The notes beneath the pieces were generated by a model that did not search any database, had not been told where the DNA came from, and worked only from the letters and a program-made list of their open reading frames with translations. Source: an archaeon (GTDB lineage Archaea > Nanobdellota > Nanobdellia > SCGC-AAA011-G17 > GW2011-AR17). Taken from it: a DNA stretch of 64,000 bases. Both the position numbers and the translations under genes were made by a program. Numbering within the stretch: the stretch's first letter is position 1; each line of letters starts with the position of its first letter. Shown one piece after another: positions 7,371-41,722 of this stretch. Location: the NCBI GenBank assembly GCA_018656555.1, contig JABHZQ010000004.1, positions 1-64,000 of the forward strand, written 5' to 3'.

Positions 7371-7434
7371 TGGGCCTGCCGGGAATCGAACCCGGGTTGA
7401 GAAAATCTCTTGATCCCACTACACTACAGACCTA
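7371..7434 (-). tRNA. tRNA-like gene with truncated anticodon arm (possible degenerate tRNA)
   Basis: Reverse complement AGGTCTGTAGTGTAGTGGGATCAAGAGATTTTCTCAACCCGGGTTCGATTCCCGGCAGGCCCA: 6 bp acceptor GGTCTG/CAGGCC with one G.U, D-like TAGTGTAGTGG, perfect T arm CCGGGTTCGATTCCCGG, anticodon region only GAGA-TTT-TCTC; TATA-like TTTATATA ~25-30 nt upstream. Confidence 0.5.
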
Positions 7435-8308: not shown

Positions 8309-8345
8309 TTATATAAAGGCCACGCGCACAGGTGCCACCTGTCCA
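8309..8345 (-). promoter_or_regulatory. TATA box plus GC-rich upstream element (diverged copy of the shared element)
   Basis: Minus strand GGACAGGTGGCACCTGTGCGCGTGGCCTTTATATAAAAA; contains perfect dyad ACAGGTG-G-CACCTGT. Confidence 0.6.
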
Positions 8346-8363
8346 TATACTAGAAAATATATA

Positions 8364-8822
8364 TTACAATCTTTGATTAACAGAAAGTAACCGTGTTGCT
8401 AAATTACAAGCCATACTATCTCCCTGGGGAACATATCCATCTTCAAAGAATAAAGTTAAACCATCAGTTTCTCTAAAATAAACACTATCTCTTACTGCAT
8501 CATAGCCAATAAAACCCTCAACACCTGGAAAACTAGATTCCATTTCAACCCCCTGGACATTAACACTTAATCCATATAAACCATCATAAGCCCATAGAGA
8601 TTCCCTTAACTGATTATAAATAAAACCAACATTACAATCATCATTAACTAATTGTTCTACTCTTTCTTCCACAGGAACATCTATTTGAGGAGGAGTATTC
8701 ACATCTCTACCTAATACAACTAAACCTACTGCTGCAGCAACACCTGCCGCTATACTCAAATAAAATCTATGATCCATTTTAGAATTAGTTTTTATCAAAT
8801 GTTTATAAATTTTACTTAACAA
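8364..8822 (-). CDS. Hypothetical secreted/membrane-anchored protein
   Basis: N-terminal hydrophobic segment DHRFYLSIAAGVAAAVGLVVLG; start possibly internal. Confidence 0.55.
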   Translation of the reverse strand: MLSKIYKHLIKTNSKMDHRFYLSIAAGVAAAVGLVVLGRDVNTPPQIDVPVEERVEQLVNDDCNVGFIYNQLRESLWAYDGLYGLSVNVQGVEMESSFPGVEGFIGYDAVRDSVYFRETDGLTLFFEDGYVPQGDSMACNLATRLLSVNQRL

Positions 8823-9843
8823 ACAACCTTACAACCCAACTACCCTTCTCATCCTTTTTCTCTTCGGAATAAACAAGATTAGCCTCTTTAAGCTTATACA
8901 CCTTTCTTCTAAAAGTCCTATCAGATTTACCAAACTGTTCATTATAGATTTTAAATATTTCAGAGAACTTATCACCAGAACTCTCTTTAATAATCTCCAA
9001 AATCTCCTTCTCTTCAGCATCCAAAACAACTTTAGAACTACTAAAACCATCTAATTTAGCTACAGCCTCTTTAACATCACTAACTTCAATTTTTCTTTTA
9101 CTATTATTCTCGGCAACATCCCCACTCATCTTTAATAAATAAATCCCACTCCTTAAATCTTTCAACTCAAAACATTTCTCAGCAATTAAATCAAAACCAT
9201 CACTAAATACATTTTCAAAAAAACCAAGATCTCTCCTCTCTGCTAATATTTCTTTAGTCTCATCCAAACTATAAGCATTAAACTCTAAAACTTCTGCTAA
9301 CAATCTAGATTTAATTCTATTATCTAGTTTAGCTAAGAAATCTTTTTCATTTGTAATCAAAAACAAACACTTCTTATAAACATCTTCTAACAATTGATAA
9401 ATAATTTGCTCCTCTTTTAACTTATCTACTTCATCAAGAACAATAACAACTCCTTTCTTATTCAAGATATTTGCAACCTCCTTCATCAACTCATCAGTTT
9501 TCTTATTCTGAACCCATTTATACCCTAATTGATCACAAATATCAACAACAACCTTGTAAGCAGTATCAGCTTTCCAACAATTAACATAAACTCCAATAAC
9601 CTTTTCAGAGAAATCTTCCATCTCTCTTAATACAAACCTACAAGCAGCAGTCTTTCCAATACCTGGGCTCCCAACCACAATTAGATTACTCCCCATTCGA
9701 CCTTGTAACAAAGGCTTAATACAAGTAGCAAAGTGTTGCTGTTGGTTCTCTCTAAACTTTAGAATTCTAGGTAAGTATTCATAATCAAATACTAACTCAT
9801 CCTTAAACAAAGTCTCATCCTGCTTTAACATATCCTTAAACAT
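8812..9843 (-). CDS. cdc6: Orc1/Cdc6-type AAA+ replication initiator
   Basis: Walker A GSPGIGKTAACRF, Walker B VIVLDEVDKL, sensor ITNEKDF, C-terminal winged-helix-like region. Confidence 0.85.
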   Translation of the reverse strand: MFKDMLKQDETLFKDELVFDYEYLPRILKFRENQQQHFATCIKPLLQGRMGSNLIVVGSPGIGKTAACRFVLREMEDFSEKVIGVYVNCWKADTAYKVVVDICDQLGYKWVQNKKTDELMKEVANILNKKGVVIVLDEVDKLKEEQIIYQLLEDVYKKCLFLITNEKDFLAKLDNRIKSRLLAEVLEFNAYSLDETKEILAERRDLGFFENVFSDGFDLIAEKCFELKDLRSGIYLLKMSGDVAENNSKRKIEVSDVKEAVAKLDGFSSSKVVLDAEEKEILEIIKESSGDKFSEIFKIYNEQFGKSDRTFRRKVYKLKEANLVYSEEKKDEKGSWVVRLFVK

Positions 9844-25633: not shown

Positions 25634-26179
25634 TTATAAGAATTTCTCATGTATAAGATCTATTACTCTTCTTAAAAGAACATCACTAACATAAACATGA
25701 CAAACACCATAATCAGATGTTTTATTTTTATCCTCAAAACATTTAAATAATTTTTTAGGCAAATTTAGATTTCTAGACCAATAATTAATAACTTCAGAAT
25801 CAGATTTGTTATGGTGTAATAAATGAATCGCCTCTCTTTTCAAATTAGATATCTTAAGAAGATTATTTTTATCTAGTTCTTTTAAGACAAATAACATTAT
25901 TTTTGGATCGGCATTAGTAAGGGTAAATCTTCTATAGTTAGATTTTCCTAATGCATTTGCTCCCTCACCTTTAATAAAACCTAAAGCATAAGCCAATTTT
26001 GGAGTTAAATTGAGTTTTTTAGGGAATATTCTACTTATTTTTCTGTTACTCTTTGTTTTATAATAAATTTCAATATTTTCCTCTTTTTCTTTCGATTCAA
26101 GAAAATATGTAGATCCTGTACTCCAAGAAGGATAAGTTTTCTTATTTTTCACAATCTTTTTAAGAATTATATTAACCAT
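25634..26179 (-). CDS. LAGLIDADG-type homing-endonuclease-like protein (single motif)
   Basis: LTPKLAYALGFIKGEGANALGKSNYRRFTLTNADPKIMLFVLKEL. Confidence 0.7.
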   Translation of the reverse strand: MVNIILKKIVKNKKTYPSWSTGSTYFLESKEKEENIEIYYKTKSNRKISRIFPKKLNLTPKLAYALGFIKGEGANALGKSNYRRFTLTNADPKIMLFVLKELDKNNLLKISNLKREAIHLLHHNKSDSEVINYWSRNLNLPKKLFKCFEDKNKTSDYGVCHVYVSDVLLRRVIDLIHEKFL

Positions 26180-26200
26180 ATGTTTTAATTGTTTTATTAT

Positions 26201-26233
26201 TATTTAAACTCTGCGCGCACATATGCCCTGTCA
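26201..26233 (-). promoter_or_regulatory. GC-rich element plus TATA box upstream of LAGLIDADG ORF
   Basis: Minus strand TGACAGGGCATATGTGCGCGCAGAGTTTAAATA; near-identical to 30824-30858. Confidence 0.75.
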
Positions 26234-26248
26234 ATGAGAAAAATAAAA

Positions 26249-26355
26249 TAGCGGGGGGTAGATTTGAACTACCGACCTCCGGGTTATGAGCCCGACGGGC
26301 ACTCCTGATTGGACAATGAGGACAAAATCTTATACTCATTCTGCCCCACCCCGCT
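26249..26355 (-). tRNA. Initiator tRNA-Met (CAT) with D-loop intron
   Basis: AGCGGGG/CCCCGCT acceptor with A1-U72, D stem GGGC/GCCC, TCGGG-CTCATAA-CCCGG anticodon arm, GGTAGTTCAAATCTACC T arm; ~30 nt insertion in D-loop. Confidence 0.85.
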
Positions 26356-26432
26356 ATATTATCCTACTAAAAAACTCCCCATTTAAAAACCTTTCCAATA
26401 ACTTTTTATAAAGAAATGTCTCTCTAAAACCC

Positions 26433-27032
26433 ATGAAAACACTCTTCATACCTGCAAAAGCAAAAGCAGCAATAAATCTAAACAAGATTACTCTAAAAGG
26501 TAAGACTGGAGTTTTAACTACTGCTCAACATTTAGACAAAGTTAAAACAATTAAAAAGAAAGATTTCACATTTCTAGGGCAAGTTCTAGGCTGTAATGCA
26601 AAAAATGCAAAAGGAAACTATGATCAATACCTTTACATTGGATCAGGAAGGTTCCATCCTATACAAATAGCCTTAGAAACAGACAAACCAGTTTACACTT
26701 ACAATCCATTCACAAAAGAATTCAAAAAATTAGATTCTATCCAAAAAATAAAAAATAAAATTAAAGGATCTTACTTAAAATATCTAAATGCAAAGAAGGT
26801 TGGAGTGATACTTTCAACAAAACCTGGACAAAACTTTAGAAAAAACTACTCTTTTCCTAAAAAGAAGGTCTACTACTTTGTTTGTAACAACATAACTAAC
26901 CAAATAGAGAACTTCCCAGACATTGATATATGGGTAAACACAGCTTGTCCAAGGCTTGCTTATGAAGGAGAATTCAATGCTTCTATAATCAATCTAACTG
27001 ATTTGTTATCCTTTTTAAGTAGTACTAAATAG
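26433..27032 (+). CDS. Dph2-like diphthamide synthase domain protein, short form
   Basis: GQVLGCN, YIGSGRFHPIQIALETDKPVYTYNP, VNTACPRLAYEGEF; lacks the expected N-terminal third. Confidence 0.75.
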   Translation: MKTLFIPAKAKAAINLNKITLKGKTGVLTTAQHLDKVKTIKKKDFTFLGQVLGCNAKNAKGNYDQYLYIGSGRFHPIQIALETDKPVYTYNPFTKEFKKLDSIQKIKNKIKGSYLKYLNAKKVGVILSTKPGQNFRKNYSFPKKKVYYFVCNNITNQIENFPDIDIWVNTACPRLAYEGEFNASIINLTDLLSFLSSTK

Positions 27033-27068
27033 AAAGTTATATAAACCATTTATTTTTAATTTTTTATA

Positions 27069-27779
27069 ATGAGTACAGCATTACAAATAAGAACCTTTTC
27101 TGAGGTCGAAGTAACTAAAATTATTAATGAAGCAAGAGCTTTAGAGAGATATGATTTGACTAGATTAGCTAGTAGAGAAATTTCTGATCATCTTATTGCA
27201 GAGGGGGGAGTAGGGGAAGAAGGTAACCCCCTATCTGTTGTTTACAGAGCTGCTACAAATGTTGGAGTTGCAAGAGAGTATGTTGATTTAGCATTACAAA
27301 ACCAAAGATCTATAGAAGATCTTAGAAGATTAGAAAGAAATTTGAAAAGTAAATTTACACCTGAACAGCTTAGAACTGCACTAGATCCTTTGTTAATACA
27401 AGTAGTTAGGGGAGAATTACCTGGACAATTGATTAGAGTAAAACGTACTAAAGAAACTTTGTGGTTCTTTAATGAAGATGATTTTGTAGCATCTAAGATG
27501 GTATTTTATAGAAGAGATCCAATTTTAAGTGAAGATAGAACTCTTGCTCATTGGCTAACTAGAACAAGATATAGAGATATGAAAATTTTTGAATTTGAAA
27601 ATAAGTATGCGCCAAGGTTTGGTTCTCCTGAATTTGATTGTACTATATTTGATCCAGATTATTTAGAAGTCCTTGGTAGTGTAAGGGAAAAGTTTGGAAG
27701 TATCATACGAAAAAGACTTTCTATATATGAAACAAAACTTAAAGTTGAATGTGATTATCCAATAGCATTAAATGTTTAA
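27069..27779 (+). CDS. Hypothetical protein
   Basis: Uninterrupted ORF. Confidence 0.55.
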   Translation: MSTALQIRTFSEVEVTKIINEARALERYDLTRLASREISDHLIAEGGVGEEGNPLSVVYRAATNVGVAREYVDLALQNQRSIEDLRRLERNLKSKFTPEQLRTALDPLLIQVVRGELPGQLIRVKRTKETLWFFNEDDFVASKMVFYRRDPILSEDRTLAHWLTRTRYRDMKIFEFENKYAPRFGSPEFDCTIFDPDYLEVLGSVREKFGSIIRKRLSIYETKLKVECDYPIALNV

Positions 27780-27829
27780 TTATAGGAACCATCAAAAACT
27801 TTATAATTAAATAATCATTTATAGATCCA

Positions 27830-28876
27830 ATGAAAAGATTACTGCTAATACCTTTACTCCTACTAATAACTGGATGTTCCCTATTCATAACTACAGTTCC
27901 AGTTATCATACAATTTGATTCTAGTTGTAATTATGAAGAATTAATAACAAATGAAATAAGACTTGAAATAGAAAATGATGATTTTACAATTATAGGCACA
28001 GACCTTACCCAAGAACAATTAAAAGAAATACAAACTAATGAATGTGTAATAAGAACAGCACACCCTTCTCAAATTCAAACCATTATAAGTGAGATACAAG
28101 AAGAACTAGATGAATCAAGAGATGAGAAGATTAGAGAATTAAAACTTCAAAGAAGCTTAGAAAGACAAGATGTATTAGATAAAGATCAATTACAAGATGA
28201 ACTAGAAAGACTCCATCCAGAAGGTGATTGGCCAGGAGGGATTATAGCTCCCTACCAATTCTATGTAACACCTGATACAGATGCAATACAAGATCTAGCA
28301 CAATCACTAGATGGAATTGAGGAAATATATCAAGAATCTTTAGACTGGATTTGGATTTCAGAAGAAGTCTTAAATGGAGTAGAAGAACTTTGGCTATATC
28401 CTGAAGAATTTTTAACAGAAACTCCAAACTATCCAACAAATCCAACTGGAATGGTTGCAAGTGACTGTGAAGATCAAGCAAATGCTCTAGCTTCAACATT
28501 AATTGCAGAAGGTTATGATCCAACAGAAGTCAGAGTTGTTCTAGGCTTAGTAAACTTTGAGGGTCAAATTGGTGGTCATGCCTGGGTTGAGATCTATGAA
28601 GATGGAAAATGGTTTGCAATAGATCCTACAATGGGAGATTATTATGATGAAGATATAAATAAATTAATCAACGCACCTTCAGTTCCATACTACTACTTCA
28701 AGTACCATAATTATCCCTCACTAGAAATTTGGTATTATTATAATAATGAATATTTCTTAGATATTGCTACAATGGGTGGAAATGCTCCACCCTCATGGAG
28801 ATTCTCAGCAAGATCTTGGTTAGAAGATGACTTAAGTAATTTCAAGAATAGAATTGTTAGACAACAAAACATTTAA
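27830..28876 (+). CDS. Lipoprotein with transglutaminase-like domain
   Basis: Lipobox LLITGCS; GMVASDCEDQANALASTLIAEG, GGHAWVEIYEDGKWFAIDPTMG. Confidence 0.75.
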   Translation: MKRLLLIPLLLLITGCSLFITTVPVIIQFDSSCNYEELITNEIRLEIENDDFTIIGTDLTQEQLKEIQTNECVIRTAHPSQIQTIISEIQEELDESRDEKIRELKLQRSLERQDVLDKDQLQDELERLHPEGDWPGGIIAPYQFYVTPDTDAIQDLAQSLDGIEEIYQESLDWIWISEEVLNGVEELWLYPEEFLTETPNYPTNPTGMVASDCEDQANALASTLIAEGYDPTEVRVVLGLVNFEGQIGGHAWVEIYEDGKWFAIDPTMGDYYDEDINKLINAPSVPYYYFKYHNYPSLEIWYYYNNEYFLDIATMGGNAPPSWRFSARSWLEDDLSNFKNRIVRQQNI

Positions 28877-28899
28877 ACACTTTTTTTATTCTTTCAAAA

Positions 28900-29289
28900 A
28901 TGCCTGTAGTGACATATATAGCAGTAACACCTACTGAGTATTTTCCTTATTTTGGAGTAGAAGGAATAAATTATTCTTCTATCTTTGATAATCAAATAGC
29001 TAGGATAGCATTAGAAGAAAAACTCCCCCTAGTTGTTCTTTGCATAGGTGCATCAGATGAAGATAAGACCGGATTAGAAAGATCTATATCTTTTCTAGAA
29101 GAGATTAGATCTGGAAATAATAAAGAAACACCTTTAATTCTATTGGGAGATCATCCTTCCAACTATCCGTTCAGAGACTCAACCATAGAAACAGTCTGTG
29201 ATAGATTAAATACAATTTACATAAACAGAGAAGAAACCTCTCCAGATCAATTCAAGGGATTTGTTCTATCTCAACTTAGAAAGCTTTAA
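28900..29289 (+). CDS. Hypothetical protein
   Basis: Uninterrupted ORF. Confidence 0.5.
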   Translation: MPVVTYIAVTPTEYFPYFGVEGINYSSIFDNQIARIALEEKLPLVVLCIGASDEDKTGLERSISFLEEIRSGNNKETPLILLGDHPSNYPFRDSTIETVCDRLNTIYINREETSPDQFKGFVLSQLRKL

Positions 29290-29314
29290 AAAATCCCAAT
29301 CCTTTCTCATTTTC

Positions 29315-30820
29315 ATGATATCAATAGAAGAAATGTCTACATTCTGTAAGAAAAAAGGATTCGTTTACAGAAGTTCTGATATTTATGGCGGTTATGCTGG
29401 ATTTTTTGACTATGGTCCACTAGGTGTAGAACTCTTCAATGCAATAAAATCTAGCTGGTGGAAATTCTTTGTACATAATCATAGTAATATGGTTGGTATA
29501 GATGCTAGTATTATCTCACATCCCAAAACTTGGGAAGCTTCAGGACACTTAGATTCCTTTGGTGATTTATTATTAGTATGTTCAAAATGTAAAAGCAAGT
29601 ATAGAGCAGATCATTTTATTGAGGAAAAATTAGATGTTGTTGCAGATGGAATGGAAGCAGATGCGGTTAATAAAATTATACTTGAAAAGAAACTATCCTG
29701 TCCATTATGTAAAGGAAAGTTCAATGAATTAAAAGATTTTAATCTATTATTTGAAACAAGTGTGGGTGCAAGTAAGGACTCAAGTAGTAAAGCATTTCTT
29801 AGGGGAGAAACTGCACAAGGAATATTCATGGATTTTAAACAAATAGCAGAAACAGCAAGAGTAAAATTACCTTTTGGTATTGCTCAGGTTGGTAGATGCT
29901 TTAGAAATGAAATCTCACCAAGAGACTTTTTATTCAGATCCCGAGAGTTTCATATTGGAGAGTTTGAATTCTTTATTCATCCAGATGAAACAAAATGTCC
30001 AGAACTAACAAAGAAACATCTTTCTTTAAAATTAAATATCCTTGATGCTAAAACTCAGGATAATGGAAAAAAAGATCTAAAAGAAATGACTATCAAAGAA
30101 ATGTTAAAGAAAAAGATGTTAGATGAATGGCATGCATACTGGTTAGCAGAACAATACAATTGGTTACTAAGTATTGGTATAAGTTCTAAAAGTTTGAAAG
30201 TAAGAGAACATGTTAGTAATGAACTATCTCATTATTCTTCAGCAACATTAGATATTGATTATGCTTTTCCTTTTGGTAGTAAAGAATTATTAGGGATTGC
30301 AAATCGAGGACAGTATGATTTAAATCAACATATTAAACACAGTAAACAAAAATTAGAGTTATTCGACGAGGAATCAAAGAAAAAAGTAGTTCCAAGAGTA
30401 ATTGAACCTACATTTGGTATGGAAAGAGTATTCTTGGCTGTATTATATGAAGCTTACAAAGATGATAAGAAAAGAGGAAACATTGTCCTAAAATTAGATC
30501 ATTCATTAACACCAATAAAATTAGGAATTTTACCTTTAGTAAATAAAAATAGGGGAAAAGCAGAAGCTATTTTTGATAAAGTTAAAACCGAATTTGTTTC
30601 ATTTTATGATAAGGCGGGTTCAGTTGGAAGAAGATATGCTAGAGCAGATGAACAAGGAGTTCCTTATTGTGTTACAGTTGACTTTGATGAGGGTGTAACA
30701 ATAAGAGATAGAGATAGTACAAAACAAATTAGAATTTCTGAAGATAAGTTAATTCCTACTTTGCATAAACTGCTTAATCAAGAGGTTCAGTTTGAGAAAG
30801 CAGGTAAGTTGGTTAAATAG
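29315..30820 (+). CDS. glyS: Glycyl-tRNA synthetase
   Basis: Class II motifs; GGYAGFFDYGPLG, RGETAQGIF, FRNEISPRDFLFRSREFHIGEFEFF; start trimmed to MISIEEM. Confidence 0.95.
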   Translation: MISIEEMSTFCKKKGFVYRSSDIYGGYAGFFDYGPLGVELFNAIKSSWWKFFVHNHSNMVGIDASIISHPKTWEASGHLDSFGDLLLVCSKCKSKYRADHFIEEKLDVVADGMEADAVNKIILEKKLSCPLCKGKFNELKDFNLLFETSVGASKDSSSKAFLRGETAQGIFMDFKQIAETARVKLPFGIAQVGRCFRNEISPRDFLFRSREFHIGEFEFFIHPDETKCPELTKKHLSLKLNILDAKTQDNGKKDLKEMTIKEMLKKKMLDEWHAYWLAEQYNWLLSIGISSKSLKVREHVSNELSHYSSATLDIDYAFPFGSKELLGIANRGQYDLNQHIKHSKQKLELFDEESKKKVVPRVIEPTFGMERVFLAVLYEAYKDDKKRGNIVLKLDHSLTPIKLGILPLVNKNRGKAEAIFDKVKTEFVSFYDKAGSVGRRYARADEQGVPYCVTVDFDEGVTIRDRDSTKQIRISEDKLIPTLHKLLNQEVQFEKAGKLVK

Positions 30821-30823
30821 CCT

Positions 30824-30858
30824 GTGACAAGGGCATATGTGCGCGCAGAGTTTAAATA
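30824..30858 (+). promoter_or_regulatory. GC-rich element plus TATA box upstream of LAGLIDADG ORF
   Basis: GTGACAAGGGCATATGTGCGCGCAGAGTTTAAATA; near-identical to reverse strand of 26201-26233. Confidence 0.75.
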
Positions 30859-30880
30859 GATTTTAACCATAAGTTTATTA

Positions 30881-31801
30881 ATGATTTTTCTAAAAACTAG
30901 ATATGGAAATATTCCTAAAAATCAGCTAATTGTAGAAGAAATTCCTGATAAACCTCAAATTTCTCTACCTAGTGAAGTTATATTACTGTATGATCCAAAT
31001 ATTGATGAAAAAAGTGCACCTATTATTCTAAAAATAAAAAATGGCAAATTAAGAAGACTAAGTAGTAAGATTACAACATCAATAGACCAAATTGAATGGA
31101 TAAGAGCTGGAAGTTCTATTCATAAAATAAAAATTCCTACTTCTTTAGATCCAAGATTGGCCTATTTGGTCGGATACCTTTATGGAGATGGAGGATTTAA
31201 AGATATTAAAAATTCATATAAAAAACATAAAAGATTTGAACATAAAATTATAGTTGGTGATGAATTTAAAATACAGATTGAAAGAATAAAAAAGTTGTTT
31301 TTTAGTTTATTTAATCTTCAAACAAAAATAAGAGATGAAAGAATAAAAAAAGGGGAATTAATGTATTACCTTAATCCTACTTGTAAGATAGTTTATAGAT
31401 TTTTGGTCAAAAACTTTGAATTTAAAGAGGGTCCAAAAGGAAACATAACAATGCCTAAAATTATTAAAAACTCTTCTTCAGAAATAAAACAATGGTTCTT
31501 AAGAGGTTTTGTAGATGCTGATGGAGATACAAGAGCAACTGAATACTATTCTTCAAGAAAGTTACCTTCTCCAAGAATTAAAGTTAGATTAGCAGATAAA
31601 AACTTCATAAATGAGTTGAAGATAAATCTTAATCAAGAATTCAACTTAAATCTTACTGGTCCATATTCAGATAATGAAAGAAATTGGTATATTCAATGTG
31701 GAAAAGGGGGAATGATTAATGCTCATAAAAAAATGTTATTCACTCACCCCATAAAAAAGTGGAGACTTAAAGAATTCTTATTTAAGAAAGGAAATATTTA
31801 A
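30881..31801 (+). CDS. LAGLIDADG homing endonuclease-like protein (two motifs)
   Basis: LAYLVGYLYGDGGF and WFLRGFVDADGDTRA. Confidence 0.88.
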   Translation: MIFLKTRYGNIPKNQLIVEEIPDKPQISLPSEVILLYDPNIDEKSAPIILKIKNGKLRRLSSKITTSIDQIEWIRAGSSIHKIKIPTSLDPRLAYLVGYLYGDGGFKDIKNSYKKHKRFEHKIIVGDEFKIQIERIKKLFFSLFNLQTKIRDERIKKGELMYYLNPTCKIVYRFLVKNFEFKEGPKGNITMPKIIKNSSSEIKQWFLRGFVDADGDTRATEYYSSRKLPSPRIKVRLADKNFINELKINLNQEFNLNLTGPYSDNERNWYIQCGKGGMINAHKKMLFTHPIKKWRLKEFLFKKGNI

Positions 31802-31860
31802 AAACTCTTTATATTTCTTAATCAGCATCAGGCTGCATTAAATAAGATTTGATTATTAAG

Positions 31861-31964
31861 GGGAGTGTAGCTCAGCCTGAAAGTTTGGCTTTAGGGTTAA
31901 CTTGGCTATGGAGAGCACTAGACTGAAGATCTAGTTGTCCGGGGTTCAAATCCCCGCACTCCCA
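31861..31964 (+). tRNA. tRNA-Phe (GAA) with D-loop intron
   Basis: GGGAGTG/CACTCCC acceptor, D stem GCTC/GAGC, CTAGA-CTGAAGA-TCTAG anticodon arm, CGGGGTTCAAATCCCCG T arm; ~30 nt D-loop insertion. Confidence 0.85.
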
Positions 31965-41615: not shown

Positions 41616-41722
41616 GCCCTGATAGTGTAGTCCGGTCTATCATGTTGCCCTGTCGAGGCAACGACCCGGGTTCGAAAAAGGGTTACCGGAAGAGGTGCCC
41701 CACGAAAGTCCCGGTTAGGGCG
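41616..41722 (+). tRNA. tRNA-Asp (GTC) with T-loop intron
   Basis: GCCCTGA/TTAGGGC acceptor, GTTGCC-CTGTCGA-GGCAAC, T stem CCGGG/CCCGG with TTCGAA...T loop interrupted by ~32 nt (about 41677-41708); discriminator G73. Confidence 0.88.

Follow-up and report, generated by a model that had tools for sequence, protein, structure and literature searches.

Free-standing LAGLIDADG genes beside interrupted archaeal tRNA genes as candidate agents of tRNA intron mobility

Two interrupted tRNA genes and their protein-coding neighbours

The window analysed here is a stretch of 64,000 nucleotides forming part of one contig of a 1.08 Mb archaeal genome assembled in 26 contigs. Within a little over 6 kb it holds two tRNA genes with interrupted D-loops, each adjoined on its own strand by a gene for a predicted or putative LAGLIDADG-type protein, and each of these two genes is preceded by the same promoter element:

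25634..26179, minus strand: ORF1, of the iMet-associated family, 181 aa, with a single LAGLIDADG-like motif, LAYALGFIKGEG
26203..26227, minus strand: promoter element before ORF1, GGCATATGTGCGCGCAGAG plus a TATA-like TTTAAA, with the ATG 48 bp from the element start
26250..26355, minus strand: tRNA-iMet(CAT) with a D-loop BHB intron, 106 nt
26309..26340, minus strand: D-loop intron of tRNA-iMet, 32 nt; removal gives GGGGCAGTCAGGAGTGCCC, compared with intronless orthologs such as that of G082
30832..30856, plus strand: second, identical copy of the promoter element, before ORF2, with the ATG 49 bp from the element start
30881..31801, plus strand: ORF2, a two-motif LAGLIDADG protein of 306 aa (LVGYLYGDGG and FLRGFVDADGD)
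31861..31963, plus strand: tRNA-Phe(GAA) with a D-loop BHB intron, 103 nt
31880..31909, plus strand: D-loop intron of tRNA-Phe, 30 nt; removal gives CAGCCTGGGAGAGC

A gap of 70 nt separates tRNA-iMet from ORF1 downstream of it, and one of 59 nt separates the end of ORF2 from tRNA-Phe downstream. Paired by hand, the Phe insertion adopts BHB geometry (AGCC/GGCT, with 3-nt bulges TGA and ATG), as does the iMet insertion (GGGC/GTCC, bulges AGA and AAT), and the hand-spliced products of both are the sequences of intronless orthologs, bearing out the D-loop insertions described in a first-pass annotation of this DNA. BHB structure was likewise found for the intron of tRNA-Trp, the three genes yielding on splicing by hand either the intronless ortholog sequence or a 7-nt anticodon loop. 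Computed RNA folding of the introns was not decisive by itself, with z scores of -0.04 (Phe) and -1.6 (iMet). Run so as to permit introns, ARAGORN labelled the Phe gene as tRNA-His and did not detect iMet, so both assignments rest on an intron-tolerant finder and on comparison. Elsewhere in the window, a tRNA-Asp(GTC) at 41623..41689 carries an insertion in its T-loop and has no adjoining nuclease gene.

By sequence and by its paired acidic motifs, ORF2 is a predicted member of the LAGLIDADG homing endonuclease family: it matches I-DmoI among PDB profiles (5e-7) and LAGLIDADG_3 in Pfam at a sub-threshold 5e-4, and GDG and DADG, with both acidic residues, are conserved in a four-sequence alignment. 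ORF1 is a putative LAGLIDADG protein by motif only. Its GFIKGEG is invariant (G67, K70, G71, E72, G73) in eight sequences and can be aligned with that of ORF2 across 20 columns at E 0.0012 and probability 19, while no match was found in Pfam, PDB profiles or Foldseek, where its model (pLDDT 88) had no hit under E 0.04 against PDB or viral models. The annotation's pair of LAGLIDADG ORFs beside tRNA genes thus stands in coordinates, strands, adjacency and the family of ORF2, with the family of ORF1 assigned from its motif. Its suggestion that structures be searched for catalytic acidic residues was answered in part: alignments show the acidic motif residues conserved in both families, the single-sequence fold of ORF2 was uninformative (pLDDT 33) and that of ORF1 had no match. 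A WhiA-like regulator is not favoured because both families keep these residues; WhiA itself stood outside the comparison.

Association of nuclease genes with tRNA introns

The association of nuclease genes with interrupted tRNA genes is real and extends beyond the two pairs in the window. The genome was rebuilt from stretches (1190 ORFs; five contigs wholly or partly N), and tRNA genes were listed with the intron-tolerant finder and Rfam matches, an incomplete list comprising 14 interrupted and 16 uninterrupted genes (17 if one odd tRNA-like gene, kept out of the set, is counted). That gene, at 7371..7433 on the minus strand of the window, is apparently without most of its anticodon arm. A LAGLIDADG or nuclease-like neighbour adjoins 9/14 interrupted and 0/16 uninterrupted genes (p 1.4e-4 by a Fisher test that, like the other tests of this association, treats genes as independent), the neighbours of uninterrupted tRNAs being judged from LAGLIDADG/nuclease matches and by eye. 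Removal of the window's two pairs leaves 7/12 versus 0/16 (p 7e-4), and removal of the Trp neighbour, an ORF resembling PD-(D/E)XK enzymes (sub-threshold Mrr_cat match) and not a LAGLIDADG gene, leaves 8/14 versus 0/16 (p 5e-4). The C4 neighbour matches LAGLIDADG_3 weakly (0.05), and five of the 14 interrupted genes have no such neighbour.

Other genomes repeat the pattern. In G001, G018, G022 and G047 a LAGLIDADG match lies within 450 bp of 16 of 59 interrupted-looking and 1 of 58 plain tRNAs (p 6e-5), the two classes being assigned from how long or how weak the match was, without full curation. On large contigs of four genomes, 10 of 22 free-standing LAGLIDADG matches fall within 450 bp of a tRNA, as against a random mean of 1.2 and maximum of 5 in 2000 trials. 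When 22 free-standing loci were read directly, 19 adjoined tRNAs, which is not an unbiased rate because the loci were chosen largely for tRNA proximity; the other three adjoin TFS, MetRS and alba, and no intron was seen at the TFS and MetRS loci.

The families, moreover, keep to their isoacceptors. Relatives of ORF1 adjoin iMet in the source genome, G064 (L345), L346, L347, L348, L349, G045 (L350) and G046 (L351), the seven relatives with record titles being MAGs labelled Nanoarchaeota or Candidatus Woesearchaeota and one contig labelled Aminicenantes. Wherever the full tRNA is visible beside this family, iMet carries a D-loop intron (7/7) at one of two sites, compared with 5/24 surveyed iMet genes, one of which, in G009, is adjoined by a different LAGLIDADG gene (p 2e-4 to 3e-4). 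The iMet survey by itself, with a pattern blind to iMet genes interrupted in the anticodon arm, gave a non-significant 3/4 versus 7/21 (p 0.16). In G018, the D-loop intron of a tRNA interpreted as Arg contains a decayed homolog of ORF1. The closest relative of ORF2, in G061, has the same gene, tRNA-Phe and intron site as the source genome, and G081 has a different LAGLIDADG-like gene at a Phe D-loop intron of that site. The identical intron site is also occupied in G101 and is empty in G100, of the same genus as G101; none of 11 intronless Phe genes has such a gene. G004, G059 and G095 each pair a convergent iMet gene with a T-loop intron. Co-occurrence in related genomes, the comparison that the annotation had proposed, is therefore upheld, with orthologous ORFs keeping both tRNA and intron (ORF1 in the seven iMet cases, ORF2 in G061).

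The coupling is not strict, since LAGLIDADG genes adjoin an intronless iMet in G040 and an intronless Leu-TAG in G015, and introns occur without a neighbouring gene in the five cases of the source genome and at several iMet genes in relatives. A decayed gene copy stands at a Phe gene without a D-loop intron in G059. The annotation had taken ORFs beside intronless tRNAs, with no insertion-site correlation, as grounds for abandoning its proposal; with the exceptions in G040 and G015 set beside the co-occurrence across genomes, it is partly supported. Footprints of insertion are sparse. A tRNA 5' half precedes the nuclease gene at the C11 locus of the source genome and at one G047 locus, and 3'-end repeats flank the gene in L346 and L347; in a flanking-repeat test of 25 loci only C11, L346 and L347 stood out, and at most loci a search for flanking tRNA duplications found no such footprint. 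Protein-coding genes may be affected as well. In L343 (G018) and L031 (G079), alba lies directly downstream of a LAGLIDADG gene and contains a BHB-like insertion whose removal restores MNYV, and in G008 a nuclease gene precedes cysS, which has a less regular candidate intron.

The shared promoter element

The two copies of the element in the window are identical over 25 bp, with a chance expectation of 0 in the window for the 19-bp core. A weight-matrix scan of the source genome, with a matrix trained partly on the sites of the genes concerned, placed it also before the Trp nuclease-like gene, the C4 LAGLIDADG gene, a small-protein-radA operon and a Hef-type helicase (sites C16:44279 and C14:3461 for the last two). 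In relatives it precedes radA operons in G011, G044 and G059 and a Hef-type helicase in G016 (loci L023, L029, L047 and L007), together with TnpB and BRO genes, and a reversed control pattern gave zero matches in an order-wide scan of 103 genomes. A viral promoter was rejected, as viral contigs contain no exact match of the core pattern. A regulator specific to tRNA introns was likewise rejected, and the annotation's conjecture that the shared promoter belongs to a regulated intron-mobility system is not supported as stated: because the element also stands before radA operons, the Hef-type helicase and TnpB genes, it is not intron-specific and looks like a recombination-repair box. The box may mark a recombination-repair regulon, and some nuclease genes would then be using a host box, possibly timing cutting with repair. 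A literature search found nothing on the element as a repair box. A weaker copy lies in the window at 8312..8336 (minus strand), downstream of a cdc6-like gene (8812..9843, minus strand) and followed only by short ORFs; in L010 (G008) and L045 (G059) the box and a nuclease gene or remnant lie directly upstream of rpoN, the G059 rpoN frame appearing shifted near its start.

A candidate mechanism and its rivals

We consider it probable that these ORFs are free-standing homing endonuclease genes that cut tRNA genes, that the intron protects its carrier, and that the two spread together. Each enzyme would cut the intronless allele of its conserved tRNA gene, a small BHB intron, which the host tRNA endonuclease splices out, would interrupt the cut site and so protect the carrier allele, and carrier-templated repair would copy intron and adjoining gene together, a scheme resembling collaborative homing with protein-spliced introns too small for a gene. 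What is observed is that gene, tRNA and intron go together, that this holds by isoacceptor, that one tRNA intron contains a decayed copy, and that a few copies are flanked by partial tRNA duplications; from this we infer cleavage, co-conversion and, from co-occurrence, overlap of cut site and intron site. The more general proposition, that BHB introns of archaeal tRNAs and some mRNAs owe their mobility to homing endonucleases encoded in free-standing genes alongside, some of them driven by a host recombination-repair promoter box, we regard as evenly poised.

Selfish genes could instead target tRNA genes while the host independently evolves introns as resistance alleles, without joint travel. 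This follows the proposal by Randau and Soll, which PMC4090602 describes, that introns are protective, and accommodates introns lacking a gene as well as genes lacking an intron; we think it unlikely, because gene family and intron site recur together across families (source genome with G064, source genome with G061) and a decayed copy lies inside an intron (G018). That tRNA genes are general insertion hot spots, where nuclease genes and introns gather independently, agrees with the common targeting of archaeal tRNA genes by integrating elements (PMC3293823), but is very improbable given how rarely uninterrupted tRNA genes have such neighbours (0/16 and 1/58, against 9/14 and 16/59 for interrupted ones) and given the match of gene family to isoacceptor.

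Some LAGLIDADG proteins act as maturases, and the genes adjoin noncanonical introns, so the proteins might be maturases or processing factors aiding excision of unusual introns. We give this scarcely any credence, as the gene is absent at five of the 14 interrupted tRNA genes of the source genome and present beside the intronless tRNAs of G040 and G015. The annotation had proposed trans-acting mobility or processing; co-occurrence of nuclease genes with interrupted tRNAs, in the source genome and relatives, favours the former, and an RNA-processing role is not favoured because those five genes lack the neighbour.

The homing scheme has partial precedents. Some archaeal introns encode LAGLIDADG enzymes (I-DmoI and others) from genes inside the intron, likewise pairing an archaeal intron with such an endonuclease, whereas here the gene stands beside the tRNA and one decayed copy is intron-borne (G018). 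Collaborative homing of phage group I introns (PMC3984707, PMC2988022) also joins a free-standing endonuclease and an ORF-less intron on one conserved target, but here archaeal tRNA genes of many isoacceptors carry BHB introns that are spliced by protein, and target overlap is conjectural. Phage T4 SegB (PMC2988022) is similarly encoded between tRNA genes and has its target in the tRNA region; it is, however, a GIY-YIG enzyme of a phage, and no tRNA intron is described there. The closest case in the literature is the Caldiarchaeum tRNA-Thr locus (Sugahara et al. 2012, PMC3293823), where an intron was gained and where an ORF stands immediately upstream, with a 5' tRNA fragment past it, comparable with C11. 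That locus, compared by description, differs in that an integrative element of the pNOB8 type, carrying a predicted recombinase, is held responsible, and LAGLIDADG goes unmentioned in the main text. Our literature search, mostly outside subscription journals, turned up no publication describing homing genes that stand free next to archaeal tRNA introns.

According to a 2014 review (PMC4090602), how archaeal tRNA introns transpose was still unknown, and the association suggests how such introns may spread between genomes. Candidate enzymes can now be named and tied to particular tRNA isoacceptors, and the question becomes open to experiment using purified proteins and short DNA targets. If the box were confirmed as a repair regulon, selfish nucleases would be using host recombination control.
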